This document shows, piece by piece, positions 1-25,163 of a stretch of 26,821 bases of DNA. Positions within the stretch are counted from its first letter, which is position 1; each line of letters begins with the position of its first letter. Origin of the DNA: a virus; IMG/VR virus record IMGVR_UViG_3300049203_000089, positions 1 through 26,821 of that record; one strand, 5' to 3'. The notes beneath the pieces were generated by a model. That model was not told the origin of the DNA and ran no database searches. It saw only the letters and a list, made by a program, of their open reading frames with translations. The position numbers and the translations under genes are program-made.

Positions 1-99
1 AGCCCCGGACTTGCTGAGCGGCTCGCCCGACGCGGCGACGCGGCGCCCGAGCCCGAGCGAGTGCGGCCCACGCGCAAGCGCAAGCAGGCGCCGGCGTGA
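1..99 (+). CDS. C-terminal end of a phage head or connector protein (partial)
   Basis: Only the last 32 codons are present, in frame from the first base, ending in TGA at 97-99. The peptide is rich in Arg, Lys, Pro and Ala (it ends RKRKQAPA) and has no diagnostic motif. The next gene starts with GTG inside its stop codon (GTGA overlap), which points to translational coupling. In phages of this type the gene just before the head-tail adaptor is usually a gp6-like head-tail connector or the major capsid protein. The connector identity is inferred from position only. Confidence 0.5.
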   Translation, partial: SPGLAERLARRGDAAPEPERVRPTRKRKQAPA

Positions 100-446
100 T
101 CGACGCTGGCGCGCTTCGGGAGCGTCTGACGATCCTGCGACACTCTACGTCGTCCGCTGGATCGCTCGGCACGCCGCAAGACATCTGGACTCCGGAAGAC
201 ACCTCGATCGCCGCCCAGCGCCGCGACGTCAGCGATGGCGAGAAGGCCGCGGCCGGCGCGCTGATTTCAGTGCTGCGAACCCGCTTCATCGTCCGTCGTT
301 GGGCGCGCACCGACAGCGTCGCGCCCAAGGACCGCGTGAGCCACGATGGGACCGTGTTCGAGGTCGTCGGGATCAAGCAGCTCGTCCCCAACTCTGGCGC
401 AGCGACGATGCTGGAATGGACCTGCGAGGCGAGGGTGGACGCTTAG
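96..446 (+). CDS. Phage head-tail adaptor (SPP1 gp16 / Phage_H_T_join-like)
   Basis: This 116-residue protein has the size and pattern of the head-tail joining family. It begins MIDAGALRERLTIL, the typical 'rlr.ritl' opening strand, continues with a WTP/DTSIAAQRRDVS segment, and has a central RTRFIVRRW strand. It ends with a DGTVFEVVGIKQL strand pair, as in adaptors where the closing hairpin describes the reference frame of the ring. Proteins of this family form a ring beneath the connector and join capsid to tail. The GTG start overlaps the upstream stop codon, and the gene lies before the gp10-like and tail terminator genes, the expected order. The assignment rests on motif recognition and synteny. 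Confidence 0.85.
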   Translation: MIDAGALRERLTILRHSTSSAGSLGTPQDIWTPEDTSIAAQRRDVSDGEKAAAGALISVLRTRFIVRRWARTDSVAPKDRVSHDGTVFEVVGIKQLVPNSGAATMLEWTCEARVDA

Positions 447-628
447 GCGGGCTTCGGTGCGGGTCCGGGATGCCATCCCGCTTCGGGTTCGCCGGTGAAT
501 CTAAGCCGGTGGCGATGAGTTGCGGTTTTCGGAGAGCCTGGCGGCGCCCTGACGTCCAATTGTTCTTCGTAGTCGCAGGAAGCGACGGTCGTCACGTCGA
601 TCCACTGCGGTTCGATGGGCCGGTTCAT
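443..628 (-). CDS. Small reverse-strand hypothetical protein within the tail operon
   Basis: A 61-residue reading frame faces against the late operon and fills an otherwise empty 210-base gap between the adaptor and the gp10-like gene. It starts MNRPIEPQWIDVTT and ends in a Pro-rich WHPGPAPKPA tail. Small phage proteins with a 'WIDVT' opening and a 'RHR...W.PGP' end occur at similar places, so I think it is real, but I cannot name a function. There is no clear Shine-Dalgarno sequence before the ATG. Its end overlaps the adaptor's stop by four bases. If the frame is not coding, the gap is simply unassigned. It would behave as a moron-type insert. Confidence 0.45.
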   Translation of the reverse strand: MNRPIEPQWIDVTTVASCDYEEQLDVRAPPGSPKTATHRHRLRFTGEPEAGWHPGPAPKPA

Positions 629-659
629 CTGATCAGCTTAGCACAGATCGGGGCGCGGC

Positions 660-1181
660 ATGAGAGTTACTATGAAGATCGCCGGCGCCAAAGAACTCGA
701 CGCCGCGCTCGGCGAGTTCAAGAAGTCCACCGCCCGCAACATCCTGCAACGGACGCTGATGAAGGCGGCCGATCCGGTGCTGGAGACGGCCAAGGCGTTG
801 GCTCCCGAGCGCACCGGCGTTCTGAAGTCGAAGATCCGCAAGGACACTCGCAAGCCCAAGGGCCACGCCAGCAAGGCCGCGTTCGCCGAGGCGATGGCGG
901 CCGGCGCCACCAAGGCGGAAGCCGCCGCGTACCAGCGCGCCTTCAACCGCGAGAATGGCCAGACCTTCGCCGAGGTGTTCGTCGGTGTTGAAGACCGCGT
1001 CGCCCAGGCGTGGCCGCAGGAAATCGGCACCGTCAACCACGCGCCGCACCCCTACATCCGCCCGGCTATCGAGCAGCGTGGGGAAGACGCCCAGCGGATC
1101 ATCGAGGCCGAACTCTCCGGCGAGATCGAGCGCGCGCGCCAACGCGCCGCGCGCAAAGCGCTGAAGACCCCGAAGGGCTGA
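660..1181 (+). CDS. HK97 gp10-like tail completion protein
   Basis: The 173-residue protein starts with a MKIAGAKELDAAL segment, has a central long helix (ILQRTLMKAADPVLETAKALAPERTGVLKSKI, given here as family pattern 'apertGxLk.si'), and a late NHAPHPYIRPAIE motif. These are the hallmarks of the HK97 gp10 family, which completes the neck or tail end of siphoviruses. A roughly 30-residue Ala/Lys-rich insertion (about residues 75-100) lies between the two conserved parts. The start could be the ATG at 660 or the in-frame ATG at 672; neither has a strong ribosome-binding site. It sits between the adaptor and the DUF3168 gene, the standard order. Confidence 0.9.
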   Translation: MRVTMKIAGAKELDAALGEFKKSTARNILQRTLMKAADPVLETAKALAPERTGVLKSKIRKDTRKPKGHASKAAFAEAMAAGATKAEAAAYQRAFNRENGQTFAEVFVGVEDRVAQAWPQEIGTVNHAPHPYIRPAIEQRGEDAQRIIEAELSGEIERARQRAARKALKTPKG

Positions 1182-1233
1182 GCTCGCCCGGCCCACGAGG
1201 GCCATCACACCGTCCGTCCTGTGAGGTCGCGCC

Positions 1234-1644
1234 ATGTCGATGGAAGCCGATCTGCGCGCGCTGCTGGTCTCTGCCATAGCGGGTGTCTCGCCCGCGCTTG
1301 TGCCAGCAGGCTCGATCCTATGGGACGCCCGCAACGGCGTGCCGTCAATCCGGCTGGCGCTGATCAACTCCGCTGATGGCCTGACCTATGCCGGCGGCGA
1401 CGAGCTAACCGAAGCGATGGTGCAGATCGACTGCTTCGCCTCCACGCCCGACGCCGCGCACGACATTGCCCAGGCCGTCCGCAGCGAATTGCACGGCCTG
1501 CGCGCCGACAACTTTCGCCTGGTGAAGGTGGAGGGCGTCTCCGGCGCCCCGCCCGAACTGGAAACCGCAGCGCCCGCGACGGACACCCCCGCCGCCATCG
1601 CCCGCCGGATCGTCATGGTCCGCGTCTTCCACGCCACTCCCTGA
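1234..1644 (+). CDS. Tail terminator / DUF3168 family protein
   Basis: The 136-residue protein opens with a helix (MSMEADLRALLVSAIAG), followed by strands around RLALINSADG and MVQIDCFASTPDAAHDIAQAV. This 'v.i.c.a.t...a..la..vr..l' pattern is the signature of the DUF3168 tail-completion family (related to lambda gpU). Members cap the tail tube after it reaches its full length and bind the head. A basic strand, RRIVMVRVFHATP, closes the protein, as in the family. It lies directly before the tail tube gene. Assignment is by pattern and order; confidence is high. Confidence 0.9.
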   Translation: MSMEADLRALLVSAIAGVSPALVPAGSILWDARNGVPSIRLALINSADGLTYAGGDELTEAMVQIDCFASTPDAAHDIAQAVRSELHGLRADNFRLVKVEGVSGAPPELETAAPATDTPAAIARRIVMVRVFHATP

Positions 1645-1657
1645 AGGAAACTGATCT

Positions 1658-2086
1658 ATGACCACTGAAGCAGATATCGGCTACGGCGGCACCGTCGAAG
1701 TCCAGGACGCCACCAGCCCAGACGTCTGGACCGAGCTGGGCGAGGTGACCAACATCACGCCGCCGAGCGAGAGCGTTGACGTGATCGACGTCACCCACAT
1801 GGCCAGCCCGAACCGCTATCGCGAGTTCATCCAGGGTCTGATCGACGCCGGCACAGCTTCGATCGAAGTCAACTGGGTGGCCGGCGGGACGACCGACGAT
1901 TACGTGTTCGCCTGGCGCTCCGCCGGTGAGACCCGCAACATGCGGATCACCACCAACAATAACACGACCTACACCTTCCCGTCGTTCGTCACCGGCTGGC
2001 AACCGCAGATGCCGGTCGACGGCAAGATGGCCGCGACGCTGGAAGTCAAGGCCGCAGGGGCCATCACTGTCGGCACGGCGGCCTGA
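1658..2086 (+). CDS. Major tail tube protein
   Basis: This 142-residue protein matches the tail tube family of alphaproteobacterial siphoviruses and gene transfer agents. It shows a WTELGEVTNITPP opening strand, a VDVIDVTHM motif, an REFIQGLIDAGTASIEVNW segment and a WQPQMPVDGKMAATLEVKA closing strand. Monomers stack as hexameric rings around the tape measure protein to form the tail tube. A good ribosome-binding site (AAGGAAA) precedes the ATG. The last codon overlaps the start of the next gene (TGATG). The GTA-like relationship supports an alphaproteobacterial setting. Confidence 0.9.
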   Translation: MTTEADIGYGGTVEVQDATSPDVWTELGEVTNITPPSESVDVIDVTHMASPNRYREFIQGLIDAGTASIEVNWVAGGTTDDYVFAWRSAGETRNMRITTNNNTTYTFPSFVTGWQPQMPVDGKMAATLEVKAAGAITVGTAA

Positions 2087-2484
2087 TGCCGGCCAATCCG
2101 CACAAGGGCGAGGTCTCCTTCGAGCTTGTCTCGGGGGAGACCTACACCCTGCAGTTCACCATCGACGCGATCTGCACGCTCGAAGAGCTGCTCGACAAGT
2201 CGTCGATGGAGATCTTCACCCAACTGGCCCGGGGCCGCATCGGCGTGCTGCGCGCCGCGATGTGGGCTGGTCTGCAGGCGAACCACCCCAAGATCACCGT
2301 GCGCGAAGCCGGCGAGCTGATCCCGCATATCAAGGGCGAACAGAAAGCTCTGCAACTCGTCACGCGGGCGATGAACCGGGCGTTCGGCGAGGCTGAAGCG
2401 GACGGGGAGGCGGCCGAGGATGGCAAATCGGACCCTCCCGAAGGTGGGACTGGCCAGGCCTCTTCCGAAGCTGGTGCAGCCTAG
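2086..2484 (+). CDS. Tail assembly chaperone, upstream part (GTA gp10-like)
   Basis: The 132-residue protein starts MPANPHKGEVSFELVSGETY and has an FTIDAICTLEELLDKSSMEI segment followed by RIGVLRAAMWAGLQ and a helical MNRAFGEAE end. These are the features of the GTA 'TIM-barrel like / TAC' family of tail assembly chaperones, which bind the tape measure protein during tail building. It lies between the tail tube and tape measure genes, the standard place. The C-terminal 45 residues are acidic and Gly/Pro-rich (low complexity), and a second frame carrying a conserved chaperone domain begins there. This suggests a lambda G/GT-like frameshift arrangement. Confidence 0.85.
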   Translation: MPANPHKGEVSFELVSGETYTLQFTIDAICTLEELLDKSSMEIFTQLARGRIGVLRAAMWAGLQANHPKITVREAGELIPHIKGEQKALQLVTRAMNRAFGEAEADGEAAEDGKSDPPEGGTGQASSEAGAA

Positions 2485-2840
2485 GCTACGAGCCTGACGC
2501 CTTCTGGCGCCAGACCCCCAAGACCCTGCGGCTCGCCATCCAGGGCGCGCAGGACCGCGTAAAGCGTGACGCACAGACCACCCGCTTCCTCGCCTGGCAT
2601 TCGATCATGCCGCACGTGGACAAGAAGAAGCTGCCCGACCTCAAGACCTTCATGGGCCTAGAGGCGTCGGGCGAGCGGAAGGCCAGGCCCGCCGAGCGGC
2701 TCGACCTCGACACAGCCATGCGTCGTTGGGCCGCGGCCCAGAACGCCGTCATGGCCGCGGAAGCCGCCAAGGCCCGCAAGCGCGAGCAGCGCCGAAAAAC
2801 CCCACCCCCCAAACCTGACGGAGAGAGACATGGCGTCTAA
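2397..2840 (+). CDS. Tail assembly chaperone, downstream part, probably made by -1 frameshifting
   Basis: This frame is open from 2397 (just after a TGA at 2394-2396) to the stop at 2838-2840. Its recognisable domain begins near 2481 with LGYEPDAFWRQTPKTLRLAI and continues with RFLAWHSIMPHVDKKKLP, the usual pattern of the second tail assembly protein. No ATG, GTG or TTG occurs in this frame before the ATG at 2607, which lies in the middle of the domain. The first frame ends at 2484. Fusion by a -1 shift from the first frame between 2397 and 2484 is the simplest explanation; CCCTCCC at 2433-2439 is a possible but imperfect slip site. The start given is the limit of the open frame, not a start codon. 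The end overlaps the tape measure start by 11 bases. Confidence 0.65.
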   Translation, partial: SGRGGGRGWQIGPSRRWDWPGLFRSWCSLGYEPDAFWRQTPKTLRLAIQGAQDRVKRDAQTTRFLAWHSIMPHVDKKKLPDLKTFMGLEASGERKARPAERLDLDTAMRRWAAAQNAVMAAEAAKARKREQRRKTPPPKPDGERHGV

Positions 2841-5800
2841 GCCCATCGGCTCCCTCTACGCCGCGCTCGGCCTGGATAGCTCGCAGTTCGACTCGGGCAT
2901 CTCGAACGCGCAGAAGAAGCTCAAGGGCTTTGGCGATTTCAAGTTCGGCCGCGGCCTCAAGGGCGGCATTGACGAGATCGACGCCGGGATGCGGGGTTTG
3001 GCCTCGCGGGCCGGGATCGCTGGAGCGGCGTTGTCAAGCGCGGGTATTGCTGGCGTTGCGACGGCGGCGGCTTTCGTTGGCCTGGCCGGCGCCTTGGCCA
3101 AGACCCGCCAGGCGCTCGCCTTCGCCGATGAGATCGGCGACACGGCCAACAAGCTGGCCATCACGACCGATGCGCTGCAGGAGTACCGCTACGCCGTCCA
3201 CCAGCTGGGCGGTGAATATGCGGATGCCGACAAGGCGCTGGAAAGCTTCGCGCAGAAGTTCGGCGCCGCCCACGCGCAGCTGACCAAGAAGGCCGGCAAG
3301 CCGTTCGAGGCGCTCGGGCTCGACGCTACCTCGTTCAAGACCACGGAAGAAGCCCTCCAGGCGGTCATCGAGAAGATCGCCGCGCTGGAGTCCGCCGCAG
3401 AGCAGGCGGCGATCGCCGACAAGCTCGGCCTGACCTCGATGCTGCCGGCGATCCGCGCGGGCGGCGAAGCGATCGATGGCCTGCGCAAGAAGGCGCACGA
3501 TCTCGGCTATGTCATGGACGCCGAGCTGATATCGAAGGCCGGCGAGGCGAACGACAAGTTCGAGGATCTGCAGCAGATCCTAGGCGTCCAGCTGAACAGC
3601 GCCTTCGTGGACCTGGCGCCGGTGCTGTTGAGCGTAACCGGCGGCCTCGCCTCGATGGCCCGCGAGGTCAACCACCTTATCGGCGAGATCAAGGACGCTT
3701 TCCCCGACCTGCAGAAGTGGGTGGCGCTGATCGCGAAAGCCGGCGGCAGCGTCCTTAAGGATCTGCCGGGCGGGGCGGTGGCCAGCGCCTCGCTGCAGGC
3801 CGGGAAGGTTGCGCTTGCGAAGGCTGCGCAGGATGGCCGCGCGCGTCAGCTCGGCTCCCGTGTCAGCGACATGCTGGCCGGCAAGCCGGTCGACCTCCGC
3901 GGGACAGAGTGGGACCCCGCCAAGAAGGCCGGGGCCGGCGGCGGCGCGTCGCTCCTTCCGGTTGGGGGCGGCGGCAAAGGCCCGCGCGACCGCACGGCCG
4001 ACGCCCTGGCCGATGTCGAGCTGAAGGAACTCAACGCCCGCATGGCGCTGACCGAGAACGTCGAGCGCCTGTCCGAGATGAAAGCGCGCCAGGTCGACAT
4101 CGAGACCAAGAAGGCCAATCAGGACGTGGCGCAGGACGTCGCGGAAGGGTCGATCACCGCCGCGGCGGGGAAGATCCTGGTCGCCAAGAACAACGAACTC
4201 GCCGACCTGGAAAAGCAGAAGATCGCCCGCGAGGCGACGGCCCAACTGGTGGCGCAGGAATTCGAGTATCGCGAGGCGATCCTCGCCGATCTCGACAAGA
4301 CTTCCGATCTGGAGGCCGAGTACGCCGCCACCGCCGCCGAGCGCAATCGCATCGAAGCCGCCGCGCTCGCTGGTCGGCAGAAGCTGGAACGCGACCGGCT
4401 CGACGAGGATCTGAAGCAGCAGCTTCAGGCCGAAGCGATCACCGAGAGCGGTGTGCGTGACCTCAAGGCGGCTCAGGCCGACCGGCAGGCGGCCGAGCGG
4501 AAGGCACAGGCGCGCAAGGCGCAAGCCCGGATCATCGACGAAGAGACCGACCTGGCCACGTCCACACTGCGCAAGCAGCAGGACCAGTTGGGCGCGCTCT
4601 CCATGGTCGCGAAGTCGACCTACGCGCGCGCGGTGATCGAGGCGAAGATCCTCAAACTGAAGCAGCAAGAAGAGCGCCTCGAAGCTGAGAAGGCGCTGCG
4701 GACGGCGACGCCCGGCTCTGCCGAAGCCAAGGTGGCGCAGGACCGTCTGGACGGTCTGAAGGCGCTCCATGAGGCCGAGCAGGAGGTCGCCAGGGAGTCG
4801 ACCAGCCTCGCACACGCGATCGAGGACGCCACCGGCAATGTCCGAGACTTCAAGGACGCGTTCAATTCGCGGAATTGGGCTGGCCTGCTGGACGCCTTGG
4901 GCGCGACGATCGACGGCATCAGGGCGTCGTTCGCTCAAAACGGCGTGCTCGGCGGCCTGCTCACCACGGGCTCAGCGTTGGGTTCACTGATCGGCGGCAA
5001 GACCGGAAAGGCCGTGGGCAACGTGGCCGGCGGCGCTCTGCTCGGCCTGGCCGGCGGAAATCTGCTCGCGGATACCGCGTTCGCGCTCGGACCATCGGCC
5101 ATCGGCGGGACCGGTTTGCTCGGGGCGGGCGCGGTCAACTTCTTGGCGGGTCCGCTCGCCGCGGCGTTGCCGTGGGTCGGTCTCATCGCTGGGCTCGCCA
5201 GCGTATTCCTCGGCTCCAAGCCCTCCAACCACGCCGGCATCGCCCAGATCGACGGGAACACCATTCGATCGGTCTCTTCCGGCAAGGAAAACGACGAAAC
5301 GCAGAACGCGGCGAACCAGACCGCCCAAACCATCTTGCAGGCCGAGCAACTGCTGGCCCAAGCAGGCGTCACGCTTTCCCAAACTGTCAGCGCCGTCGAT
5401 CTCGGCACGCGCGACAAGACCCGCATCGTGCTCAGCGACGGGACCGAATTCCGGACCAACGCCGTGGGCGACCCGGCTGAAGCGGCCGAGACGGCGCTAA
5501 AGCGACTGCTGCAGGGCGCCATCTATGCCGACGACGCCTTGAAGCAACTTGTCGAGAGCGCGCTGGCCGCCGGCAAGGGTTTCGACGACATCGCCGCCAT
5601 TCTCCAGGCGCAGCAGGTCGGCAAGCAGCTGGCGGACCAGATCCTGCAACTGACCGACCCGAAAGCCTACGCGAAGAAGCAAGTCACCGACAACATCAGG
5701 ACCCAACGCGACGCGGCGAAGGCGCTGTTCGATCAAGGCGCGCTCACCGCCGACCAGTTGGCCGCAATCAACGTGCAGCTCGACCAGCTTGAGGCGTTGA

Positions 5801-6390
5801 GGCTCGCCGACGTCATGAAGGATTTCGGCGACGCCGCAACAAGCGCTGCCGACGATTGGAAGAAGGCCTCGCAAAGCCTCTCCGATTGGCTCGCCTCGCT
5901 AACCGGCCAGACGGCGTCGGGAGCGCAGGCCGCAGCCCAGGCCTACGCCGCGCTGCAGGCCGCGGGGATCGCCGCGCGCGCAGGCGACCTCGACGCCGCC
6001 GAGAAGATCCCCGATCTCGGCAATGCCTATATCGCAGCCGCCAAGGCCATCGCCGGCAGCCAGCAAGAATACCTGATGGCGGTGGCTCGCGCCCGCGCGA
6101 TCGGCTCCAGCGTGCAGCTCGACGCCGCCGCTCGTGCCGGCATGGACGCCTCCGCGCTCTCTGCTGCGAATAGTCCCGTGGTCGGAAACACCACCAGCCA
6201 GCTCGTCGCGGGCGACGCCTCGTCCAGCGACGCGGCCGGGGACACGCTGGCAGCGCTGAAGAGCGAGATCGTCAGCCTGCGCGACGACATCCGCGCCGCA
6301 GCCACGGCCCTCGCCCGCAACGGCAGCGACACCAAGAAGCTGCTCGACCGCTGGGACGGCGAAGGCCTGCCGGCCGAGCGCGCTTCGTGA
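2830..6390 (+). CDS. Tape measure protein
   Basis: At 1186 residues this is the longest gene in the window and lies just after the chaperone genes. It begins with the 'LYAALGLDSSQFDSGI' domain typical of tape measure proteins. A hydrophobic Ala/Gly segment follows at about residues 62-90. Residues 395-680 are a long charged helical, probably coiled-coil region rich in Lys, Glu, Gln and Ala. Residues 706-798 are a second strongly hydrophobic Gly/Ala/Leu stretch, likely membrane-inserting during DNA entry. The C-terminal third is again helical. The protein sets tail length and is packed inside the tube. At about 1.5 angstrom per residue the tail would be near 170-180 nm; this figure uses the common rule of thumb and is only an estimate. 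Confidence 0.95.
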   Translation: MASKPIGSLYAALGLDSSQFDSGISNAQKKLKGFGDFKFGRGLKGGIDEIDAGMRGLASRAGIAGAALSSAGIAGVATAAAFVGLAGALAKTRQALAFADEIGDTANKLAITTDALQEYRYAVHQLGGEYADADKALESFAQKFGAAHAQLTKKAGKPFEALGLDATSFKTTEEALQAVIEKIAALESAAEQAAIADKLGLTSMLPAIRAGGEAIDGLRKKAHDLGYVMDAELISKAGEANDKFEDLQQILGVQLNSAFVDLAPVLLSVTGGLASMAREVNHLIGEIKDAFPDLQKWVALIAKAGGSVLKDLPGGAVASASLQAGKVALAKAAQDGRARQLGSRVSDMLAGKPVDLRGTEWDPAKKAGAGGGASLLPVGGGGKGPRDRTADALADVELKELNARMALTENVERLSEMKARQVDIETKKANQDVAQDVAEGSITAAAGKILVAKNNELADLEKQKIAREATAQLVAQEFEYREAILADLDKTSDLEAEYAATAAERNRIEAAALAGRQKLERDRLDEDLKQQLQAEAITESGVRDLKAAQADRQAAERKAQARKAQARIIDEETDLATSTLRKQQDQLGALSMVAKSTYARAVIEAKILKLKQQEERLEAEKALRTATPGSAEAKVAQDRLDGLKALHEAEQEVARESTSLAHAIEDATGNVRDFKDAFNSRNWAGLLDALGATIDGIRASFAQNGVLGGLLTTGSALGSLIGGKTGKAVGNVAGGALLGLAGGNLLADTAFALGPSAIGGTGLLGAGAVNFLAGPLAAALPWVGLIAGLASVFLGSKPSNHAGIAQIDGNTIRSVSSGKENDETQNAANQTAQTILQAEQLLAQAGVTLSQTVSAVDLGTRDKTRIVLSDGTEFRTNAVGDPAEAAETALKRLLQGAIYADDALKQLVESALAAGKGFDDIAAILQAQQVGKQLADQILQLTDPKAYAKKQVTDNIRTQRDAAKALFDQGALTADQLAAINVQLDQLEALRLADVMKDFGDAATSAADDWKKASQSLSDWLASLTGQTASGAQAAAQAYAALQAAGIAARAGDLDAAEKIPDLGNAYIAAAKAIAGSQQEYLMAVARARAIGSSVQLDAAARAGMDASALSAANSPVVGNTTSQLVAGDASSSDAAGDTLAALKSEIVSLRDDIRAAATALARNGSDTKKLLDRWDGEGLPAERAS

Positions 6391-6400
6391 GGGGCCTTAA

Positions 6401-7462
6401 GTGAAGATCGTCCCCCCCATCACCATAACCGACGCGATGCTGGTCTCCAGCAACGTCTCCGAGGGGCCAGCCGCCGCCTACAACGCCGGCACCACCTACG
6501 CCGCGGGCGATGTGGTCAGCTACGGCGGGACCCTGCTGCAAATCCAATGGGCGAGCCTGCAGGGCGGCAACACCGGCAACACGCCCGACGACGCAGCCTC
6601 CACCGACTGGTGGCGGGCGATCGGTTATGCGGCGGCGGCCTACAGCGCCTTGACCACCTATGCCGCTGAAGACGGCGCCCAGATCGACGGGGATGACGTT
6701 CACCAGCTCTGGTGGTCCGTGCTTGACGACAACCTCGCCAACGACCCCACGGCGGACTCTGGCGACAACTGGCTTCTCATGTCGCCGACCAACCGCTGGG
6801 CGCTGCACGACCTGGCGCTCGGCTTTGGCACCGGCAATGTCCGCGTCGCGACCCGTTGGGGCGAGCTGATCGACAACACTTACGAGATCGATGAGCCGAT
6901 CGACACCGTCTGCGCCTTCGTGCTGCAGGGCGCCACTGTCCGGGTCTCCGTCGCCGCCACCAGCTACGACGAGACAATCACGATCGAGGGCGATGCGGGC
7001 CGGGTGAAGTGGCAGATCGACGACGCGCCGCACATGCACAAGGTGCTTTTCGACGACGTGGACTTCAATCCAGGCGATCAGATCCGGGTGCGGATCTCCA
7101 ACCCTGGCGGGATCGTAGCCTGCGCAGAGTTGGTGTTCGGGCTGGCCATCGATGCCGGCGGCACGCGCTGGGGCAGTCGCCCTGGCGTCCAGGATTATTC
7201 GATCATCGCGGCTGACGACTTCGGGACGTTCCAGGTGACGAAGCGCGCCTGGCACCAGCGGTGGAGCGGCGAGGTTCTCGTCGATACGGCCGACCTCGAC
7301 CCCATGATGGAGCTGCTGACCCTGAAGCGTGGCTCGCCACTGCTGTTCGTCGGCGATCCTGATTACCGCTCGACCATCGTCTTCGGGATCGTGAAGAGCT
7401 TCGAGCCGACCATCACCTGGCCGGACATGACGGTCTTCGCGCTGGACCTTGAGAGCGTCTGA
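6401..7462 (+). CDS. Tail-tip/baseplate protein with carbohydrate-binding-like repeats
   Basis: The 353-residue protein starts with GTG at 6401, ten bases after the tape measure stop. Residues about 24-76 contain AAYNAGTTYAAGDVVSYGG ... TGNTP ... DWW, which looks like a carbohydrate-binding module of the CBM5/12 type. Residues about 78-127 repeat the start as AAYSALTTYAAEDGAQIDGD, a degenerate second copy. The C-terminal half holds a beta-rich segment and a RWGSRPG ... TKRAWHQRWSG ... FVGDPDYRSTIVFGIV region seen in phage tail-tip proteins. It probably lies at the distal tail and may touch cell-surface glycan. The exact part is not known. It overlaps the start of the fibre gene. Confidence 0.65.
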   Translation: MKIVPPITITDAMLVSSNVSEGPAAAYNAGTTYAAGDVVSYGGTLLQIQWASLQGGNTGNTPDDAASTDWWRAIGYAAAAYSALTTYAAEDGAQIDGDDVHQLWWSVLDDNLANDPTADSGDNWLLMSPTNRWALHDLALGFGTGNVRVATRWGELIDNTYEIDEPIDTVCAFVLQGATVRVSVAATSYDETITIEGDAGRVKWQIDDAPHMHKVLFDDVDFNPGDQIRVRISNPGGIVACAELVFGLAIDAGGTRWGSRPGVQDYSIIAADDFGTFQVTKRAWHQRWSGEVLVDTADLDPMMELLTLKRGSPLLFVGDPDYRSTIVFGIVKSFEPTITWPDMTVFALDLESV

Positions 7463-11828: not shown

Positions 11829-11879
11829 GCCTGAACTCTAACTCATTCGACGTTGAATCTAAACAGGAAACTGCCTATC
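11829..11879. promoter_or_regulatory. Divergent intergenic region before the endolysin gene
   Basis: These 51 bases separate the start codons of the minus-strand cassette and the endolysin gene and must hold any local control signals for either. They contain an imperfect 14-base palindrome, ATTCGACGTTGAAT at 11847-11860 (one mismatched pair), and an AGGAA ribosome-binding site about ten bases before the endolysin ATG at 11880. No convincing -35/-10 pair stands out. Confidence 0.3.
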
Positions 11880-12368
11880 ATGGCCAATAACGCCAAGGCT
11901 GTCGGCGTCGCGGTCGGCGCGCTGCTCATTGCGGGCGGCGTCGCCACACGCGAGCTGATCGCGCCCAACGAAGGGCTGGAGCAGGTCGGCTATATCGACC
12001 CGACCGGCACGGCCACCGCCTGCCTCGGCCACGTCAAGACGGCCAAGGTCGGCGCCTACTACAGCCAGCAGCAGTGCATGGCCTTGCTGGCGCAGGACGT
12101 GACCGAGCACGCCATGGCCATCGCGCCATGCATCAAGGTCCCGGTCCCGCACGAGAGCATGGTGGCCTTCATCTCGTTCGGCTTCTGGTCGGGGGCGAAG
12201 AACTTCTGCACCAGCACCCTCGCCAAGAAGCTGAACGCGGGCGATCTCGCGGGCGCCTGCGCTGAGCTGTCCCGCTGGACCTACAGCAGAGGCAAGCAGC
12301 TTCCCGGCCTCGTGCGACGTCGCGCCGAAGAACGCCGCTGGTGTGAATCCGGCCTCCTCAGGAGCTAG
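11880..12368 (+). CDS. SAR-type endolysin, GH24 lysozyme
   Basis: From the ATG at 11880 (AGGAA upstream) the protein is 162 residues. Residues about 5-22 (AKAVGVAVGALLIAGGVA) form a weakly hydrophobic, Gly/Ala-rich signal-arrest-release helix. The catalytic triad of T4-type lysozymes is present as E31, D40 and T46 (NEGLEQVGYIDPTGTAT), with the exact E-9-D-6-T spacing. A GLVRRRAEE motif lies near the end. It cleaves the glycan strands of peptidoglycan. Six cysteines (near 48, 66, 84, 110, 127 and 155) could form disulfides that control activation after release. The usual 'FNVG' is FGFWSG here. An upstream TTG at 11853 is a less likely start. Confidence 0.92.
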   Translation: MANNAKAVGVAVGALLIAGGVATRELIAPNEGLEQVGYIDPTGTATACLGHVKTAKVGAYYSQQQCMALLAQDVTEHAMAIAPCIKVPVPHESMVAFISFGFWSGAKNFCTSTLAKKLNAGDLAGACAELSRWTYSRGKQLPGLVRRRAEERRWCESGLLRS

Positions 12369-12369
12369 C

Positions 12370-12765
12370 ATGTTCGGTCTAGACAAGATCATCGCCGTAG
12401 GGCTGTCAGGCGTCGCGCTGGTGGCCGTGATCGCCGTAGCCTGGGCCGCTCACGACATGGGCGAGCAGAAGCAGCTCAAGCGGGATCAGCCGGTCATCGC
12501 CAAGCTGAACACCGATCTCGCCGAATGCAAGGCGACGCTGGGTCAGCAGCGGGATGCGCTCAAGACCCAGAACGACGCAATCACGCAAATGGGCATCGAG
12601 GCCCAGGAGCGCAAAGCCGCGTCCGACCGCGACATCCGAAAGGCTCGGGACGAGGCGAGGGTGTACCGCGCCAAAGCCGAACGCATCGCCAAGGCGCGAC
12701 CTGGACCGGATCAATGCGCGAGCGCGCGCGAGCTGATCGTCGATGCCTTGGGAACCGAACGATGA
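12370..12765 (+). CDS. i-spanin (Rz-like inner-membrane spanin)
   Basis: The 131-residue protein has one N-terminal membrane helix (about residues 7-28, VGLSGVALVAVIAVAWAA) followed by a long charged helix from about 32 to 115, predicted to be coiled coil (KLNTDLAECKATLGQQRD and onward). This is the shape of an Rz-type i-spanin, which links to the o-spanin and fuses inner and outer membranes at lysis. An AGGAG site precedes the ATG at 12370, one base after the endolysin stop. The stop overlaps the next gene by ATGA. The partner lipoprotein is not adjacent but one gene further on. Confidence 0.8.
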   Translation: MFGLDKIIAVGLSGVALVAVIAVAWAAHDMGEQKQLKRDQPVIAKLNTDLAECKATLGQQRDALKTQNDAITQMGIEAQERKAASDRDIRKARDEARVYRAKAERIAKARPGPDQCASARELIVDALGTER

Positions 12766-14408: not shown

Positions 14409-14500
14409 ATCGTCAGACTCGTGCGAAAAGCTGAGTGTTTCTAAGCCGTGAACTGAACGGGAACAGTTAGGCGGCCGCAAGCGCTTTCAATGGCCTGAGA

Positions 14501-14549
14501 GCGACTTTTAATCGAATGGTCGTGAGTTCGAACCTCACCCGGCCTACCA
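14501..14549 (+). other. Probable attachment core (attP): 3' part of tRNA-Lys(UUU)
   Basis: The bases show an anticodon loop CTTTTAA (anticodon TTT, 14505-14511), a short variable region, a perfect T-arm GTGAG-TTCGAAC-CTCAC (14522-14538), an acceptor strand CCGGCCT and A, then CCA at 14547-14549. The 5' half of a tRNA is missing: upstream sequence does not form the D-arm or a pairing AGGCCGG strand, and only three anticodon-stem pairs form. This is the expected identity block for a tyrosine integrase that uses a tRNA gene, and the integrase stop is six bases away. After recombination it would restore the host tRNA 3' end. The tRNA identity is from the anticodon only. Confidence 0.8.
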
Positions 14550-14554
14550 TCTTT

Positions 14555-15790
14555 TCAAGCGCTTAGCGGCTTCTGAAGCCGACCGTCAGACTGCTCGTCG
14601 GACTGACCGTCAGACTTCTGTTCGACCTTCGCCCCGATCAGACCCCGTTTGCGCTGTGCGTTCCAGGCCACTTCGTTGTCTCGCGGCAGGTACTTGGCGA
14701 GGATCTGGTTCGCCGAAAACGGGCTGTGGCCGGTGATGCTGGCGATTTCCGGCACGTCGCAGCCGGCGCGCGCGAGCTGCACCACGCAGCTATGTCGAAG
14801 CGCCCGGACCTGAAGCTTGGCGTTGAACCCCGCCTCCGTGCGGATCGCCTGCCAGACGTGGCCTAGCCGCTGCTCGGCGAACGGCTTGCCGGTTTTGCGA
14901 TCGGCGAACAGGAACAGGCTGTCGGGCAGGTGGATGGCCTCTAGAAGACCCGCCAGAGCGTCGCTGACAGGGATCGTCACCCAGTTGCCAGTCTTCTCCT
15001 GCCAGAACTTGAAAGCCCTCTCCTCAGGCTTGTATTCGCCGCCCCAGCGGAACATGCGGGTATCGGTCAGTCGTTGCCCGATCTCCCACTCCGTGAGCAT
15101 CAGCGCCGCCAGCGGCGCCTGCCCGGCCATGACGCAGGCCCACGCGCCGGCCATGACGTCTTCGCGCTCCCAGATCCGCACCTTGGACTTGGGCGCCGCG
15201 ACCTTGATGCGCTCGGCGGGATTATCCGTCCGCCACTTCAGCGCAACGGCGTGATCCAAGAGCATCTTCAGCACAATCTTGACGTGGCGCCGGGTGGTCG
15301 GCCGATCATCGTAGAGCGTCAGGAAGCTTTCGATGGCTTCCCGCTCAAGCGCCGCCACGGGCTTGTTACCGGCAGCCTCGGACCAATCCAGCACGAGTCC
15401 GGCGTGGTAGCTGTAGCCCTGCTGGGTGCGCGGCTTCTTCGCCTTGTAGAACTGCGACGCTTCCCACTCCCGCACGAGATGCGGCAGATCCCGCAAGACC
15501 TTCGGGGCCTCCTCGCGGCCGAGACGTGCGTTGACCAGCCGAGCGTAAAGGCTGTCCGCATCGGCCTTGATCCGCGCGACTTCCTCGAGGTTCGTCAGGT
15601 CGCCTGTGCGCGTCCCCTTAACGGGCAGCGGGATCGCCGCCGACCAACCGGAGGGCCGCAGCCGGGCGGGCACTTCCAGCAGGACTCGGTGCGTCCCGTC
15701 CTTTCGAGGACGGAGCGTGACGTACTTTCCGAGATCGAGCCGCACGGATGGCATCGGGGTCGACCGTCCATTGGTCATTGGTCGGGGCAT
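14555..15790 (-). CDS. int: Tyrosine recombinase integrase
   Basis: The 411-residue protein has an N-terminal arm-binding region, a core-binding helical domain (about residues 100-190, including REWEASQFYKAKKPRTQQGY) and a catalytic domain. Visible catalytic residues are R240 (EIGQRLTDT), K266 (FWQEKTGNW), R332 (VRALRHS), H355 (ITGHS) and the nucleophile Y367 (ILAKYLP). The first His of the usual HxxR box is Arg (R329). It would recombine attP with the host tRNA gene. The C-terminus carries a repeated SDGQSDEQSDG stretch. Its stop is next to the tRNA fragment. The start may be 15790 or the in-frame ATG at 15754; either overlaps the upstream Xis-like gene by more than 130 bases. Confidence 0.93.
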   Translation of the reverse strand: MPRPMTNGRSTPMPSVRLDLGKYVTLRPRKDGTHRVLLEVPARLRPSGWSAAIPLPVKGTRTGDLTNLEEVARIKADADSLYARLVNARLGREEAPKVLRDLPHLVREWEASQFYKAKKPRTQQGYSYHAGLVLDWSEAAGNKPVAALEREAIESFLTLYDDRPTTRRHVKIVLKMLLDHAVALKWRTDNPAERIKVAAPKSKVRIWEREDVMAGAWACVMAGQAPLAALMLTEWEIGQRLTDTRMFRWGGEYKPEERAFKFWQEKTGNWVTIPVSDALAGLLEAIHLPDSLFLFADRKTGKPFAEQRLGHVWQAIRTEAGFNAKLQVRALRHSCVVQLARAGCDVPEIASITGHSPFSANQILAKYLPRDNEVAWNAQRKRGLIGAKVEQKSDGQSDEQSDGRLQKPLSA

Positions 15791-16001
15791 CCTTCACCAG
15801 ACCCAGCGCCTTGAGAACAGCGTCTCGGTCGAACATTGTGGACTTTCCGAGCTGCACAGGGGACGCAGGCAGCCAGGCAGGGTCTTCGCGCCGCCGGCGC
15901 CATAGGCTCGTCACGCTGCACTGAGCCAGCGCACACACCTCGGCCGTCGTCATGCGCAAGGGCAGGCGATCCGGGTCAGAGATGAGTGGGCGGGTCGTCA
16001 T
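15618..16001 (-). CDS. Excisionase/AlpA-like helix-turn-helix protein
   Basis: From the ATG at 16001 the protein is 127 residues. Residues about 10-65 (LPLRMTTAEVCALAQCSVTS, then LWRRRREDPAWLPASPV, ending FDRDAVLKALG) match the winged helix-turn-helix of AlpA/MerR-type excisionases. Such proteins bind near the attachment site, bend DNA and direct Int toward excision. It lies just upstream of int on the same strand. The C-terminal 60 residues are basic, Arg/Ala/Ser/Pro-rich and overlap the start of int in another frame by about 137-173 bases. The family call is firm for the N-terminus; the tail could be non-essential. Confidence 0.75.
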   Translation of the reverse strand: MTTRPLISDPDRLPLRMTTAEVCALAQCSVTSLWRRRREDPAWLPASPVQLGKSTMFDRDAVLKALGLVKDAPTNDQWTVDPDAIRAARSRKVRHAPSSKGRDAPSPAGSARPAAALRLVGGDPAAR

Positions 16002-17410: not shown

Positions 17411-17607
17411 TCCCCGCCCCCCATCTTAGCGTCAGCCATCAGCGCATCGGCCGCGCGCACCACATCCAGGGCAAACTCGACGGCGGCCCGCGGCGATTGC
17501 TGGAGGTGCGGCCCGAAGAAGTTCGGATTGGCGCAGATCCCGGAGAGCGCCGCGTTGAAGATGGCGCGGTAGCCTTCGTGATTATGCCAAGACGCTGGAA
17601 GGCTCAT
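17407..17607 (-). CDS. Small hypothetical protein (66 residues)
   Basis: From the ATG at 17607, which overlaps the upstream stop (ATGA), the protein starts MSLPASWHNHEGYRAIFNAA and ends in a helix VEFALDVVRAADALMADAKM. An upstream start exists in frame but overlaps a well-supported gene. No known domain is visible. Confidence 0.6.
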   Translation of the reverse strand: MSLPASWHNHEGYRAIFNAALSGICANPNFFGPHLQQSPRAAVEFALDVVRAADALMADAKMGGGE

Positions 17608-17939
17608 GACCGGCCCTCGGCCTTTGCAATAGCGGCACGGATCGTCGGGCCCACCCAGTCGGGTCGGTTCCACTCGCCCATCCACTTGTCGGCCAGCTTC
17701 AGCGCCTCCAGCAGCTCAGGGGCAGTGGCCATCAGGCGGGCGACAGGCCAAGCGGCCAGCCGTGTCGGCTCATGGCCGTCTCGGCTGTAGTCCACCACGG
17801 CGATTGGGACCGACCGGATAGTGCCGTCCTCGCGATACTCGCGGTCTTCGCGGTGTACAAACCAGCGGCCCTCAACGTCGCCCGGAACGGCCTCCCAAGG
17901 TGCGCGCAGGCCGACGCTTTTCATGGCTTCCTCGCTCAT
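17604..17939 (-). CDS. Small early protein, 'APELLEALK...AIAKAEG' family, copy 1
   Basis: The 111-residue protein has a variable beta-rich front (RWFVHREDREYREDG, VPIAVVDYSRDG) and the shared end LMATAPELLEALKLAD plus TIRAAIAKAEGRS. The end is a widespread small phage module of unknown function. Three other genes in this operon carry the same end, so this is one member of a paralogous set. It is coupled to both neighbours by ATGA overlaps. Confidence 0.75.
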   Translation of the reverse strand: MSEEAMKSVGLRAPWEAVPGDVEGRWFVHREDREYREDGTIRSVPIAVVDYSRDGHEPTRLAAWPVARLMATAPELLEALKLADKWMGEWNRPDWVGPTIRAAIAKAEGRS

Positions 17940-18262
17940 GACTGTCCCTCAGCTTTGGCTATGGCAGCGCGGCATCGCGCTATGTGCTTGTCGGGAGCGT
18001 CCACGGCGATGGACGCGGGGATCATGTCTCGCAGCAACTCAGCGGCGTTGAGCGCCCACTTCAGCGCTGCCAGCAGCTCGGGTGCGGCGGAGATCAGGTC
18101 GGCGTCAGCGTAATCGCGAACCTCCGCGACGGTCTTCACGCCGCCTCCCTGGCCGTCGGTGCGCACAGGCCCGCCGTCATGCACCACGCAGGCCGCCATG
18201 CCCTGGTACAGTGAGGACCAGACATTCCACGGCCCAGGCGTGTGTTTCGCTTGCTCAGTCAT
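17936..18262 (-). CDS. Small early protein, 'APELLEALK...AIAKAEG' family, copy 2
   Basis: The ATG at 18262 has a near-perfect ribosome-binding site, GGAGG, eight bases upstream, which fixes the start. The 108-residue protein starts MTEQAKHTPGPWNVWSSLY, with the 'HTPGPW' opening seen in many phage proteins of this group, and ends with DLISAAPELLAALKWALN and CRAAIAKAEGQS. The function is unknown; the HTPGPW front plus AAPELLEAL end is a typical combination. Confidence 0.8.
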   Translation of the reverse strand: MTEQAKHTPGPWNVWSSLYQGMAACVVHDGGPVRTDGQGGGVKTVAEVRDYADADLISAAPELLAALKWALNAAELLRDMIPASIAVDAPDKHIARCRAAIAKAEGQS

Positions 18263-18521
18263 GGTGTTCCTCCAGGTTGGCGGACCCAACGTCCCCTTGG
18301 GCGGGCAGTCGCCACGAACAGATTTGGCCGGGCACGTCCCAGGCGTGGGCGGCGACCTTCTCGACAAGGCCGGCGCCAGCCAGCGCCTCCAGCCGACGTT
18401 TTGCCTCTCGGATGTCCCAACCGAACCGCTTAGCTACGCAGTCGGTGTTGGAGACGCCGCCTTCGCGCCGGATGAAGCCGACGATGCCCTCGTATTTGAA
18501 GGGTCGGACAACCTCACCCAT
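18255..18521 (-). CDS. Winged-helix-like DNA-binding protein (88 residues)
   Basis: The protein begins MGEVVRPFKYEGIVGFIRRE and continues with GGVSNTDCVAKRFGWDIREA, then KRRLEALAGAGLVEKVAAHA. The helix-helix-recognition helix-wing order (block 'REAKRRLEALAGAGLVEK') looks like a small winged helix-turn-helix domain. It could regulate the early operon, although a host-takeover role is as likely. Its stop overlaps the next gene start by eight bases. Confidence 0.6.
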   Translation of the reverse strand: MGEVVRPFKYEGIVGFIRREGGVSNTDCVAKRFGWDIREAKRRLEALAGAGLVEKVAAHAWDVPGQICSWRLPAQGDVGSANLEEHHD

Positions 18522-22053: not shown

Positions 22054-22331
22054 CAGCCGTTCGCCTCCAGCCAAGAGTCACACTCGGCGAACGTGCCCGT
22101 AAAGACGACTTCGAAGCCCTTGCCACCCTCGCCAGCCGGGTCCGGATTGGGGCGGCGAACGCCCACGACGTTGCAGGCGGCCCGCGCGCCCCACTCGTGG
22201 GGGTTGGTCGGCGCCTCGATCCAGAACGGGCCGGGATCGGGCTCTTGCGGCCCCATGAACCGCCCGCGCTTGTCGCGGATCTGGCGTTCCAGCATGGCCT
22301 TGGCGCGGCGCTGTTCGATGGTGAGGGTCAC
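22053..22331 (-). CDS. Small hypothetical protein upstream of the HNH gene (92 residues)
   Basis: The GTG start at 22331 overlaps the upstream stop (GTGA). The protein begins MTLTIEQRRAKAMLERQIRD with a basic helix, continues with GRFMGPQEPDPGPFWIEAPT and ends in a beta-rich region (FEVVFTGTFAECDSWLEANG). It may bind nucleic acid through its basic front, but no known domain is visible. It is coupled to the HNH gene by TGATG. Confidence 0.65.
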   Translation of the reverse strand: MTLTIEQRRAKAMLERQIRDKRGRFMGPQEPDPGPFWIEAPTNPHEWGARAACNVVGVRRPNPDPAGEGGKGFEVVFTGTFAECDSWLEANG

Positions 22332-22840
22332 GCGGCCCTCGACTGCTTGGAGAGCGTGTCGGGCGTCACGCCGATCAGGCCGGCGACGATCTCCAGCACC
22401 GCCTGTTTCGACCGCTGGAACTCCGCGGCGCCCATCGCCCGCTTGCTCTGCGACTTGGCCTTTCGGACCACCACGATTGGCCCGCGCACCACGACATGGG
22501 CGAAGCCGTCCTCGGCCTTGGCGTAGTCGCGCACCCGCAGCGCGGCGGCGTTCGATCCCACGTCGAGAATGGTCTCGGTGTAGAACCCGGCGTCGATCAG
22601 CGCCCGCTTGCGCAGGTGCTCGGAGGTCGGGAAGTGTTCGGCCAGGTGGTCGGGAAGCTGCTTCCAAGCCTCTGCGATGGTGGCGAACTCGTGGTTGTGG
22701 CTCTTTTCCGTCCGCTCCGGCTCGACGTGCAGCCAGTAGACCGCGCCCTCGACGAACTGCTCATCGGCCGCGTCGGAGAACCTCGCGGTCGGGATGAGCA
22801 CCCGGTTCGACCATCGGAAGGCCATGGCGTCGCGGATCAT
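22328..22840 (-). CDS. Conserved phage hypothetical protein (170 residues)
   Basis: From the ATG at 22840 the protein contains EGAVYWLHVEPERTEKSHNH, then EFATIAEAWKQLPDHLAEHF and SEHLRKRALIDAGFYTETIL, and ends with RAMGAAEFQRSKQAVLEIVA. This is a frequently seen phage protein next to recombination genes. The 'R..kshNh.FA.i.eaW..lP' core recalls NinB- or DUF1367-like accessory recombination proteins, but that link is weak and only by pattern. An upstream GTG at 22948 is unlikely, since its extension reads as low-complexity. Its front overlaps the 64-residue gene at 22761-22955. Confidence 0.72.
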   Translation of the reverse strand: MIRDAMAFRWSNRVLIPTARFSDAADEQFVEGAVYWLHVEPERTEKSHNHEFATIAEAWKQLPDHLAEHFPTSEHLRKRALIDAGFYTETILDVGSNAAALRVRDYAKAEDGFAHVVVRGPIVVVRKAKSQSKRAMGAAEFQRSKQAVLEIVAGLIGVTPDTLSKQSRAA

Positions 22841-22955
22841 CGTACCTGTTCCGAAGGGTGATCTTGGTTCCGGGGAAGGCGCGTAGGACGTCGCGGCAGA
22901 ACTCGCGCAGCTCGTCCTCTGGCCAGATGGGCGGGGCGGGGCGTTCACGCGGCAT
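22761..22955 (-). CDS. Small hypothetical protein overlapping its neighbour (64 residues)
   Basis: The frame reads MPRERPAPPIWPEDELREFC, then RDVLRAFPGTKITLRNRYDD. It fits the gap between the nuclease gene and the 170-residue gene, starting in an 11-base overlap with the nuclease stop. Its last 26 codons run through the first part of the next gene in another frame, an unusually long overlap. The first 40 residues look protein-like (helix plus strand), the last part less so. It may be real with a dispensable end. Confidence 0.5.
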   Translation of the reverse strand: MPRERPAPPIWPEDELREFCRDVLRAFPGTKITLRNRYDDPRRHGLPMVEPGAHPDREVLRRGR

Positions 22956-23580
22956 CTCGCAGCGGTTCGCCATAGGCGCGGACCTTCTCCACGATGGCGG
23001 CGAGTTCGTCGTTGAACCTGGCGACCTCGGCGGCGAGGTTGGCGATGTACGCCTCATCTCGATGAGCCCGCTTGAGGAAGGGCGGCAGGCCGGGCCAGTA
23101 GACGGCCAGGTCGATCCATTCCCGCTCGGCGACCCAGAGCGCGCCCTGGCATTGGGCGACGTGCTCGGGGCAGAACTCATCCGCCAGGATGGCCCCAATC
23201 AGGAACTTCGGGGCCTTGCTCTTGATCTCCAGCATCCCGTCATCGCCGATCAGCGAGTCAGGGGAACAGCCGGCGCCGTGGTTGGTGATGAAGCCCACCT
23301 GCCGAGGCTCGGTGTCGGAGATCATCGCGTAGAGGTCGCGGGCCTCGGGCTCCAACGCCTTGCCGCGTTCGGTGTAGAGGCTGGAGAAGCCCTCCGGGGG
23401 CTCGCCGGTCAGACGCTCGCCCGCAAGCTGGAGCATGTAGGTCTTGCGCGTGGCGCTGGGCGTCTTGCCGTCCTTGCCGCGCTTGACGATGCACTCGAAC
23501 TCGGAGGCGGTGGCCAGGCCGGCGCGGACGGCAAACCATTCGGCCGAGCCCTGCTGGACGTCGTGAATGATTGCGGCCAT
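22945..23580 (-). CDS. YqaJ/lambda-exonuclease-type recombination nuclease
   Basis: The 211-residue protein has the fold motifs of YqaJ-type viral recombinases. QGSAEWFAVRAGLATASEF (about 10-28) is the typical 'w...R.g.ltAS' opening. SLYTERGKALEPEARDLY (about 67-84) follows. The catalytic part is CSPDSLIGDDGMLEIKSKAP, giving D108, E118 and K120, matching the D...ExK pattern of lambda exonuclease. It degrades the 5' strand of linear double-stranded DNA and leaves 3' overhangs for annealing. It lies directly after the Erf-like annealing gene (one base overlap), so the two act as a Red-like pair. Confidence 0.9.
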   Translation of the reverse strand: MAAIIHDVQQGSAEWFAVRAGLATASEFECIVKRGKDGKTPSATRKTYMLQLAGERLTGEPPEGFSSLYTERGKALEPEARDLYAMISDTEPRQVGFITNHGAGCSPDSLIGDDGMLEIKSKAPKFLIGAILADEFCPEHVAQCQGALWVAEREWIDLAVYWPGLPPFLKRAHRDEAYIANLAAEVARFNDELAAIVEKVRAYGEPLRDAA

Positions 23581-24329
23581 CAGCGGGCGCTCGCACGCTT
23601 CTTGGCGGCTAGGCTGGTCAGCGCCTTGCGGAACTCGTTCGTGCGGATGTGCTCGACCGCATCGACCGCCATGTATTTGAGGAAGGCGGCGCGGTCGGCG
23701 CCGGCGTCGCTCAACAGCGCGTTGATCTGCCCGACCTGGCCTTCGCCGATGAAGGTCGCTTCCGCCGCATTGCCGTCGTCGTCGGTCAGCGCGACGTCGA
23801 AGATCATCAGTTTGAGATATCGCCGGCCGTAGCTCATCGTGGAGCCGAAGGCGTGCGTCGCGGTCTTGTTCTGCGTCCCCTTCATGCCGGTCAGATCGGC
23901 CGGAACGTCGGCGTGGTATTCCCGTGAGTGGCCAGCCTCGTGAGAGAGGGTGCAGGTGATGCGGTAGTGGTTCGGCAGCGGGCTTTCCGCGGTCCCGAAC
24001 GACAGCGCGAAGCCGTGCTTGGTGATGATCGGGTCCATCGTCCGCGCGACCGTCTCAAGCCGCGCATAGCGCGAGTTGGTCTGATCGTTCTTGGCGTCCC
24101 GCTGGATCTGCGGCATCTCCGCTTGCGCGGCTTTCAGCCCCTCATTGAACAGCCGCTCGGCGTCGCGGGCCGTGATCCGCTCGTACATGCCGAGCAACCG
24201 CTCCAGCTTGTCCACGTCGGTGTTCGGATCGGCGGCGGCGCGGCTGATGACGTCCATCAGGGGCGCGGCGCCCACGGTGACGACTTCGCCGGTCACGCGG
24301 GCGACCTCTTGGCGGGCGGGCTCACTCAT
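23580..24329 (-). CDS. Erf-family single-strand annealing protein
   Basis: The 249-residue protein carries the Erf-superfamily core: EGLKAAQAEMPQIQRDAKND (about 64-83), RYARLETVARTMDPIITKHG (about 87-106), and KGTQNKTATHAFGSTMSYGR (about 150-169) followed by RYLKLMIFDVALTDDDGNA. The 'tp.h..GS..sYgrRY.l...l.l....DDDG' pattern is diagnostic of Erf, the P22 essential recombination function. Such proteins coat and anneal single strands and help circularise or repair phage DNA. The adjacent YqaJ nuclease would provide the strands. Confidence 0.92.
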   Translation of the reverse strand: MSEPARQEVARVTGEVVTVGAAPLMDVISRAAADPNTDVDKLERLLGMYERITARDAERLFNEGLKAAQAEMPQIQRDAKNDQTNSRYARLETVARTMDPIITKHGFALSFGTAESPLPNHYRITCTLSHEAGHSREYHADVPADLTGMKGTQNKTATHAFGSTMSYGRRYLKLMIFDVALTDDDGNAAEATFIGEGQVGQINALLSDAGADRAAFLKYMAVDAVEHIRTNEFRKALTSLAAKKRASAR

Positions 24330-24717: not shown

Positions 24718-25059
24718 TCAGCGGCCCTCGGCCTTGGCGATGGCCGGCAGCAGTACGGTTTCCCGGAAAGCCGTCTCGCCCCCGCCGGAGCGGTCGCGGA
24801 TGAAAGCTTCGGCCGATCTCAGGGCTTCCAGCAGATCAGGCGCAGCGGAAAGCAGGTGAGCGACGCTCTTGTCGCAGTTGTAGACGGTCGCAAACGAGCC
24901 GGCGAAATCCGCCTCACCCCGCTCGCACACACCGTGGCAGGTGGTGGGGAGGCCGGGGTGCGAGAGCACATGCCACGGCGTTGGGCGGTCGCGGTTCGGC
25001 GATTGACCGCTCGTTACGGCAGTGATCGACGGGGACAGGTCCCGGGATTCAGTATTCAT
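24718..25059 (-). CDS. Small early protein, 'APELLEALK...AIAKAEG' family, copy 4
   Basis: The protein is 113 residues from the ATG at 25059, which overlaps the upstream stop; an in-frame ATG at 25068 adds three. It contains RPTPWHVLSHPGLPTTCHGV, then ADFAGSFATVYNCDKSVAHL and LSAAPDLLEALRSAEAF, ending LLPAIAKAEGR. The core is nearly the same as copy 3 at 19769-20140, over 4 kb away, including the conserved Cys/His positions. The function is unknown. Confidence 0.78.
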   Translation of the reverse strand: MNTESRDLSPSITAVTSGQSPNRDRPTPWHVLSHPGLPTTCHGVCERGEADFAGSFATVYNCDKSVAHLLSAAPDLLEALRSAEAFIRDRSGGGETAFRETVLLPAIAKAEGR

Positions 25060-25163
25060 TTCACCCATCCGAGTAGAGTGGCGACGAAGACGACGCCGCG
25101 TATTTCGTTCAGCAGCAGCATCGCCACGCCGAATGCGCCGAGCCGCTTGACAAGCGCCTTCAT
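25056..25163 (-). CDS. Tiny membrane protein (35 residues)
   Basis: The frame encodes MKALVKRLGAFGVAMLLLNE followed by IRGVVFVATLLGWVK. A basic front is followed by a hydrophobic stretch broken by one Glu-Ile-Arg, so it may be one helix or a re-entrant pair. Its ATG overlaps the stop of another tiny membrane gene, and its stop overlaps the next gene. A GGCGGG site lies upstream. The function is unknown. Confidence 0.55.
   Translation of the reverse strand: MKALVKRLGAFGVAMLLLNEIRGVVFVATLLGWVK

Follow-up and report, generated by a model that had tools for sequence, protein, structure and literature searches.

The window analysed here is an entire IMG/VR record, a linear sequence of 26,821 bp with no end repeat. 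To the left of an attachment core, on the plus strand, genes for head closure, neck, tail terminator, major tail protein, tail chaperone and a 1186-aa tape measure protein are followed by a further tail-side gene, a GT87 glycosyltransferase, an endolysin and a spanin. To the right, on the minus strand, lie the integrase, several small genes, an HNH gene and the genes for NinB, YqaJ exonuclease and ERF (Table 1). This gene order is one lambda-like plan, with the att site between the late and early blocks. The first-pass annotation had described phage-like genes on both sides of the core, and tail and lysis genes are indeed found on the left and integrase, NinB, YqaJ and ERF on the right. Its own counter-case, host genes immediately left of position 14500, did not materialise: the window shows no recognisable host gene to the left of the core, and the DNA flanking it there has a homologue on the phage side of the attR in the genome G304.

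Some other genes of the window are worth recording. The GT87-family glycosyltransferase, located at 9450-10523 between the tail and lysis genes, is possibly a lysogenic-conversion gene. Three proteins (17604-17939, 17936-18367 and 24718-25068) belong to phrog_1273, an unknown family. PADLOC found no defence genes among the eight proteins tried.

Table 1. Features of the window around the attachment site, and a related integrated prophage. Positions refer to the window unless a genome is named.
Feature	Position	Strand	Basis or remark
Head closure, neck, tail terminator, major tail protein, tail chaperone, tape measure, further tail-side genes	96..7462	+	PHROGs
Lysis genes: endolysin (Phage_lysozyme), Rz-like spanin	11853..12765	+	
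Probable P-arm site P1, TCGTCAGACT, 9/10 to CCGTCAGACT	14410..14419	+	Starts 92 bp left of core start
Conserved P-arm block GTGAACTGAACGGGAACAGT	14449..14468	+	G304 attR and one IMG/VR contig
Probable second P-arm site, degenerate, inverted, 7/10 (weak in window)	14465..14474	-	Perfect copy at offset -37 in G304
Core of the putative attP	14502..14549	+	48-bp exact match, 28 Caulobacterales/Alphaproteobacteria records, all intact tRNA-Lys(TTT)
Anticodon loop CTTTTAA, flanked by CGA/TCG; putative strand-exchange (overlap) region	14505..14511	+	Start of phage/host identity
Tyrosine integrase, 411 aa, reads towards core	14555..15790	-	PHROG, Pfam, alignment, AlphaFold/Foldseek
Probable P'-arm site CCGTCAGACT, first	14583..14592	+	
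P'-arm middle copy TCGTCGGACT, degenerate	14595..14604	+	Within 12-bp tandem repeat (repeat family D1)
Probable P'-arm site CCGTCAGACT, second	14607..14616	+	24 bp from first
Possible excisionase (RDF), 127-aa ORF, overlaps int 5' end in another frame	15618..16001	-	Weak HTH_17
Early recombination genes: NinB/Orf, YqaJ exonuclease, ERF annealing protein	22328..24329	-	Same order beside int and tRNA-Lys in G366
G304 prophage (L070-L072)	G304:C2:18975-43304		

The core and its host gene

The core, CGACTTTTAATCGAATGGTCGTGAGTTCGAACCTCACCCGGCCTACCA on the plus strand, repeats the 3' part of a host tRNA-Lys(UUU) exactly over 48 bp, from the anticodon stem to CCA. It consists, in order, of three anticodon-stem bases, the loop CTTTTAA with the anticodon UUU, the variable loop, the T-arm, the 3' strand of the acceptor stem and CCA. 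At position 14501 the phage has G, whereas all host tRNA genes read have T. Directly to the left of the shared stretch, the host tRNA genes have GTAGAGCATT where the window has GGCCTGAGAG, and thus the 5' half of the tRNA is absent from the window. ARAGORN found no tRNA gene in the 26,821-bp window and Rfam gave no match there at the curated threshold; both are silent because the 5' half is missing, as expected for half a tRNA. A gap of five bases (14550-14554) separates CCA from the integrase stop codon (14555-14557).

The 48-mer was searched for in the GTDB species genomes (about 85,000) and was found exactly in 28 records. These comprise 16 Phenylobacterium, 3 Caulobacter, 4 other Caulobacterales or Caulobacteraceae and 5 labelled only as Alphaproteobacteria, so that all 23 records labelled below class are Caulobacterales, with Phenylobacterium in the majority. 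Each of the 28 matches sits in an intact tRNA-Lys gene with the anticodon TTT. An exact 48-base match that ends at CCA and is seen only inside intact tRNA-Lys genes is not due to chance. When the Caulobacteraceae were considered separately, 47 of 390 genomes carried the core at one mismatch or fewer, 34 of them exactly. The host family of the phage is the Caulobacteraceae, and the host is most likely Phenylobacterium, which fits best. An exact molecular match thereby ties an uncultured phage fragment to a host family.

Most of what the first-pass annotation had said about the core stands. A tRNA-Lys(UUU) 3' part is present on the plus strand, its 5' half is missing, and the survey agrees with the proposed target gene and with Caulobacterales as the host group; tRNA-Lys genes with the same 3' end were found in plausible hosts when they were looked for. 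The core had been given as 49 bases, whereas the host-identical stretch is 48 bases long (the G at 14501 lies outside it), and the spacing of six bases to the integrase stop has to be corrected to five.

In three separate att sites, namely those of the window, the 58.7-kb IMG/VR contig G001 and the G304 prophage, identity between phage and host starts 3 bp to the left of CTTTTAA. Since identity starts so close to the loop in all three, strand exchange most likely falls in the 7-base anticodon loop, which would contain the putative exchange point.

Integrase and probable arm-type sites

The integrase matches the PHROG integrase profile (E=4.3e-25) and Pfam Phage_integrase above the cut-off (E=7.4e-11). 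Residues R240, R332, H333, H355 and Y367 are invariant in the integrase alignment (A1). They fit a tyrosine recombinase, as expected, and catalytic roles can be assigned to them by pattern. The AlphaFold model is of modest quality (pLDDT 65.7, pTM 0.40). Within it, a beta-beta-beta-alpha arrangement is predicted at residues 24-89 (local pLDDT mostly 78-86, at the overall pTM of 0.40), and this region of the model looks like an N-terminal arm-binding domain. Foldseek searches with the same model (pTM 0.40) returned XerA and lambda Int, the latter (1z1b) with an E value of 2.7e-7 over 382 columns. A sequence search of solved structures gave weak matches only, of which the top one was a XerC-like recombinase. 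The 127-aa ORF at 15618-16001 matches HTH_17 with E=0.019, under the Pfam cut-off, and is tentatively considered a candidate excisionase.

The motif CCGTCAGACT is found three times in the 26.8 kb at one mismatch or fewer (14410, 14583 and 14607), each time within 115 bp of the core. Three copies per 26.8 kb are not unusual, as 29 of 100 shuffles reach the same number; it is their placing that is unusual. An offset of exactly 92 bp from the start of the left site to the core is shared by the window, G001 (L079) and the G304 attR, which are all the known left arms. The nearby block GTGAACTGAACGGGAACAGT was found, among 388 Caulobacteraceae genomes, only in the G304 attR, and it recurs at the equivalent position in one IMG/VR contig. 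Left-arm homologues are known from the G304 attR and G001, and right-arm homologues from six other loci. The right pair keeps a spacing of 23-24 bp at the corresponding sites in seven of seven loci, with some copies degenerate. In each complete att site, the motif is present on both sides of the core. The 9-mer CGTCAGACT has 15 copies distributed over nine of ten arms (200 bp each), and in none of 300 Markov shuffles was any 9-mer present in more than four arms; the ten arms are partly homologous, so these counts are not ten independent events.

The CCGTCAGACT repeats are probably the arm sites of the integrase. Such probable arm-type sites are an addition to the first-pass annotation, which lacked them. 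In the window, the right-arm motif sits within the int coding sequence, where the last codons, KSDGQSDEQSDGR, encode the P' arm repeats. The C-terminal tail of the integrase is repetitive because 12-bp DNA repeats, the probable arm sites, underlie it. Conservation of the right-arm motif could therefore be partly at the protein level, but the right pair of G304 lies outside int, which argues against this. In G304, int abuts the left arm instead, and its last codons (GRTVRLA) encode the left site. Compared with the window, the G304 att segment is turned round with respect to the phage genes, with int next to the P arm and a lysis-type gene on the P' side; both sets of arm sites are nevertheless retained. 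A tentative idea, which we consider possible but favour less than its opposite, is that the arms and the core, together with int, make up a portable integration cassette common to Caulobacteraceae phages that are dissimilar in other respects. The arm sites would then lie in the last int codons whichever arm int abuts, P' in the window and P1 in G304.

Integrated relatives and the state of the window DNA

Seven IMG/VR records contain relatives of the integrase with identities of about 58-72%, and five Caulobacteraceae genomes contain relatives at about 60-68%; no relative found exceeds 72%. In G359, G378, G265 and G366, the 3' end of the int relative is no more than about 100 bp from that of an intact tRNA-Lys(TTT), an arrangement as expected for attL. 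In G366, NinB, YqaJ and ERF follow in the order of the window. While only the intact-tRNA end was seen in these four genomes, both ends were seen in G304. A search with the left-arm block in 388 genomes did not find the attR ends of the four prophages, whose contigs break 4.5-9 kb into the prophage.

The G304 prophage, 24.2 kb in length, is bounded by an intact tRNA-Lys and a tRNA fragment that form a 48-bp direct repeat, in line with the earlier proposal of prophages bounded by a repeat of 45-50 bases. The tRNA and the fragment share exactly the 48-bp extent of the window core, and G replaces T before the fragment as in the window. When the G304 flanks are rejoined, they align unbroken across the tRNA and the next gene in the relatives G311, G380 and G388 (69-75% identity), which show the uninterrupted empty site. 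Inside the virus contig G001, the order is left arm, the same core, int, as in the window. No genome was found to hold a prophage close to the entire window. Four IMG/VR relatives (L031, L033, L034 and L035) terminate precisely with the stop codon of their integrase relative, and no core is visible in them; presumably they are proviruses trimmed at the gene edge, with their att sites lost.

A further relative, G011 (58.4 kb), has int on the minus strand at one end and plus-strand tail genes towards the other, and the window joins the same blocks at att. The left-side genes of the window are only 33-53% identical to those of G011. Ends like those of G011 joined at att are what a circular or virion form would give, and the window DNA may thus represent a virion or an excised circle. 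Neither the core nor the arm motif is present near the G011 int, and so its target is either different or cut off. At the very end of G011 is a small lipoprotein gene that looks spanin-like by inspection.

Phage arms on both sides of a core make the site either an attP or the junction of two tandem prophages. In our judgement, the window very probably contains a complete attP (P arm, core and P' arm) of an unintegrated temperate tailed Caulobacteraceae phage. A tandem junction or double lysogen at one tRNA-Lys, with the attR end of one prophage as the left half and the int end of the following one as the right half, would be locally identical to attP, and no local feature of the sequence tells the two apart. 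Tandem islands at one tRNA are indeed known, with 125 arrays of two or more listed in Islander (PMC4383910), but they are a small minority of the islands in that table. Moreover, the two halves of the window form one sensible plan (tail-lysis, att, int-early), in which no module was seen twice, and free phage DNA is a simpler source of such a virus contig. We therefore regard a tandem junction as improbable.

Two further readings are very unlikely. In the first, the phage would use a complete phage-borne tRNA with a core of 9-17 bp (tRNA-dependent lysogeny), and restoration of the host gene would not depend on the fragment. Cluster K4 and L mycobacteriophages use the same target, tRNA-Lys-TTT, in this way (PMC10865867), and Achromobacter phage Mano has a complete tRNA-Lys near int; the window, however, has no complete tRNA, and its core is not short but extends over 48 bp to CCA. 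A core of this extent means that integration restores the host tRNA, which is intact in five lysogen genomes. The second reading, a chance or vestigial fragment (a decayed gene or the scar of an old att site) that takes no part in present integration, draws on the tRNA fragments that genomes do accumulate as island scars, but is opposed by 48 bp identical to the tRNA of living hosts, by an intact int at a distance of five bases, by arm repeats positioned as at other att sites, and by the same core bounds in the prophages of relatives.

With regard to Mano (L081, MT708550.1), its tRNA-Lys was the only match in a DNA search of isolated phages. The complete gene, at 2974-3048, lies between int and a baseplate gene and could be a case of tRNA-dependent lysogeny or of a full-length tRNA core.

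If the site is a complete attP, the N-terminal domain of the integrase (14555-15790) would probably bind the CCGTCAGACT arm sites and its catalytic part the core. By bridging arm and core sites, the integrase would recombine attP with the host tRNA-Lys(UUU) gene, with the exchange most likely across the anticodon loop. Integration would join the host promoter and the 5' half of the tRNA to the phage-borne 3' half, making the gene whole beside int at attL, and the displaced host 3' fragment would mark the far prophage end, attR. Because the phage carries its own 3' half, a tRNA gene with its promoter would stay whole next to the phage. What was read from the sequences is the core with its host target, the boundaries of prophages in relatives, the empty sites and the conservation of the arm repeats; recombination of attP with the tRNA-Lys attB by the window integrase is predicted. 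A set of integrase, attP and attB with probable arm sites is thus defined and might become an integration tool for Caulobacteraceae.

Comparison with known systems

In lambda, arm sites flank the core on both sides and int is transcribed towards att from the early side; the probable arm sites and the int of the window are arranged likewise. Lambda integration does not use a tRNA gene. The integrase model, of modest confidence (pTM 0.40), has a predicted N-terminal region of three strands plus a helix and matches lambda Int by Foldseek (1z1b), whereas the arm motif and the core are unrelated.

The class of tRNA-derived attP is already well known, and what is added here is the name of the host family and the probable arm sites. 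The site type is textbook, and in this case it is unusually well documented by related integrated viruses. The proposed mechanism follows the general principle of tDNA integration (PMC4383910). In Islander, class A comprises the anticodon-centred tDNA attachment sites (PMC4383910). As in that class, the shared stretch runs from the anticodon stem to the tRNA 3' end and the 3' fragment is displaced to the far end of the element; there is no difference of substance. In the tRNA-inserted prophages KplE1 and HK620 (PMC2951348), the core is likewise the tRNA 3' end and arm-type sites adjoin int. Their int promoter, however, is located in attL and int reads away from att, whereas the int of the window is directed towards att, with the probable arm sites overlapping the 3' end of the gene.

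Of the described cases on this tRNA, the closest is the attP of Boilgate, a subcluster K8 mycobacteriophage, with its attB-4 in the M. smegmatis tRNA-Lys-TTT (PMC10865867). Both attP sites use the 3' half of tRNA-Lys-TTT as the common core, with 43 bp in Boilgate and 48 bp in the window; the tRNA is remade at attL, as predicted for the window, and putative arm-type sites lie on the flanks. Boilgate differs in the phylum of its host and in a core that departs from the host at five positions, against none here, and in the window the 3' end of int contains the P' arm repeats. The likeness drawn between the two is one of layout.
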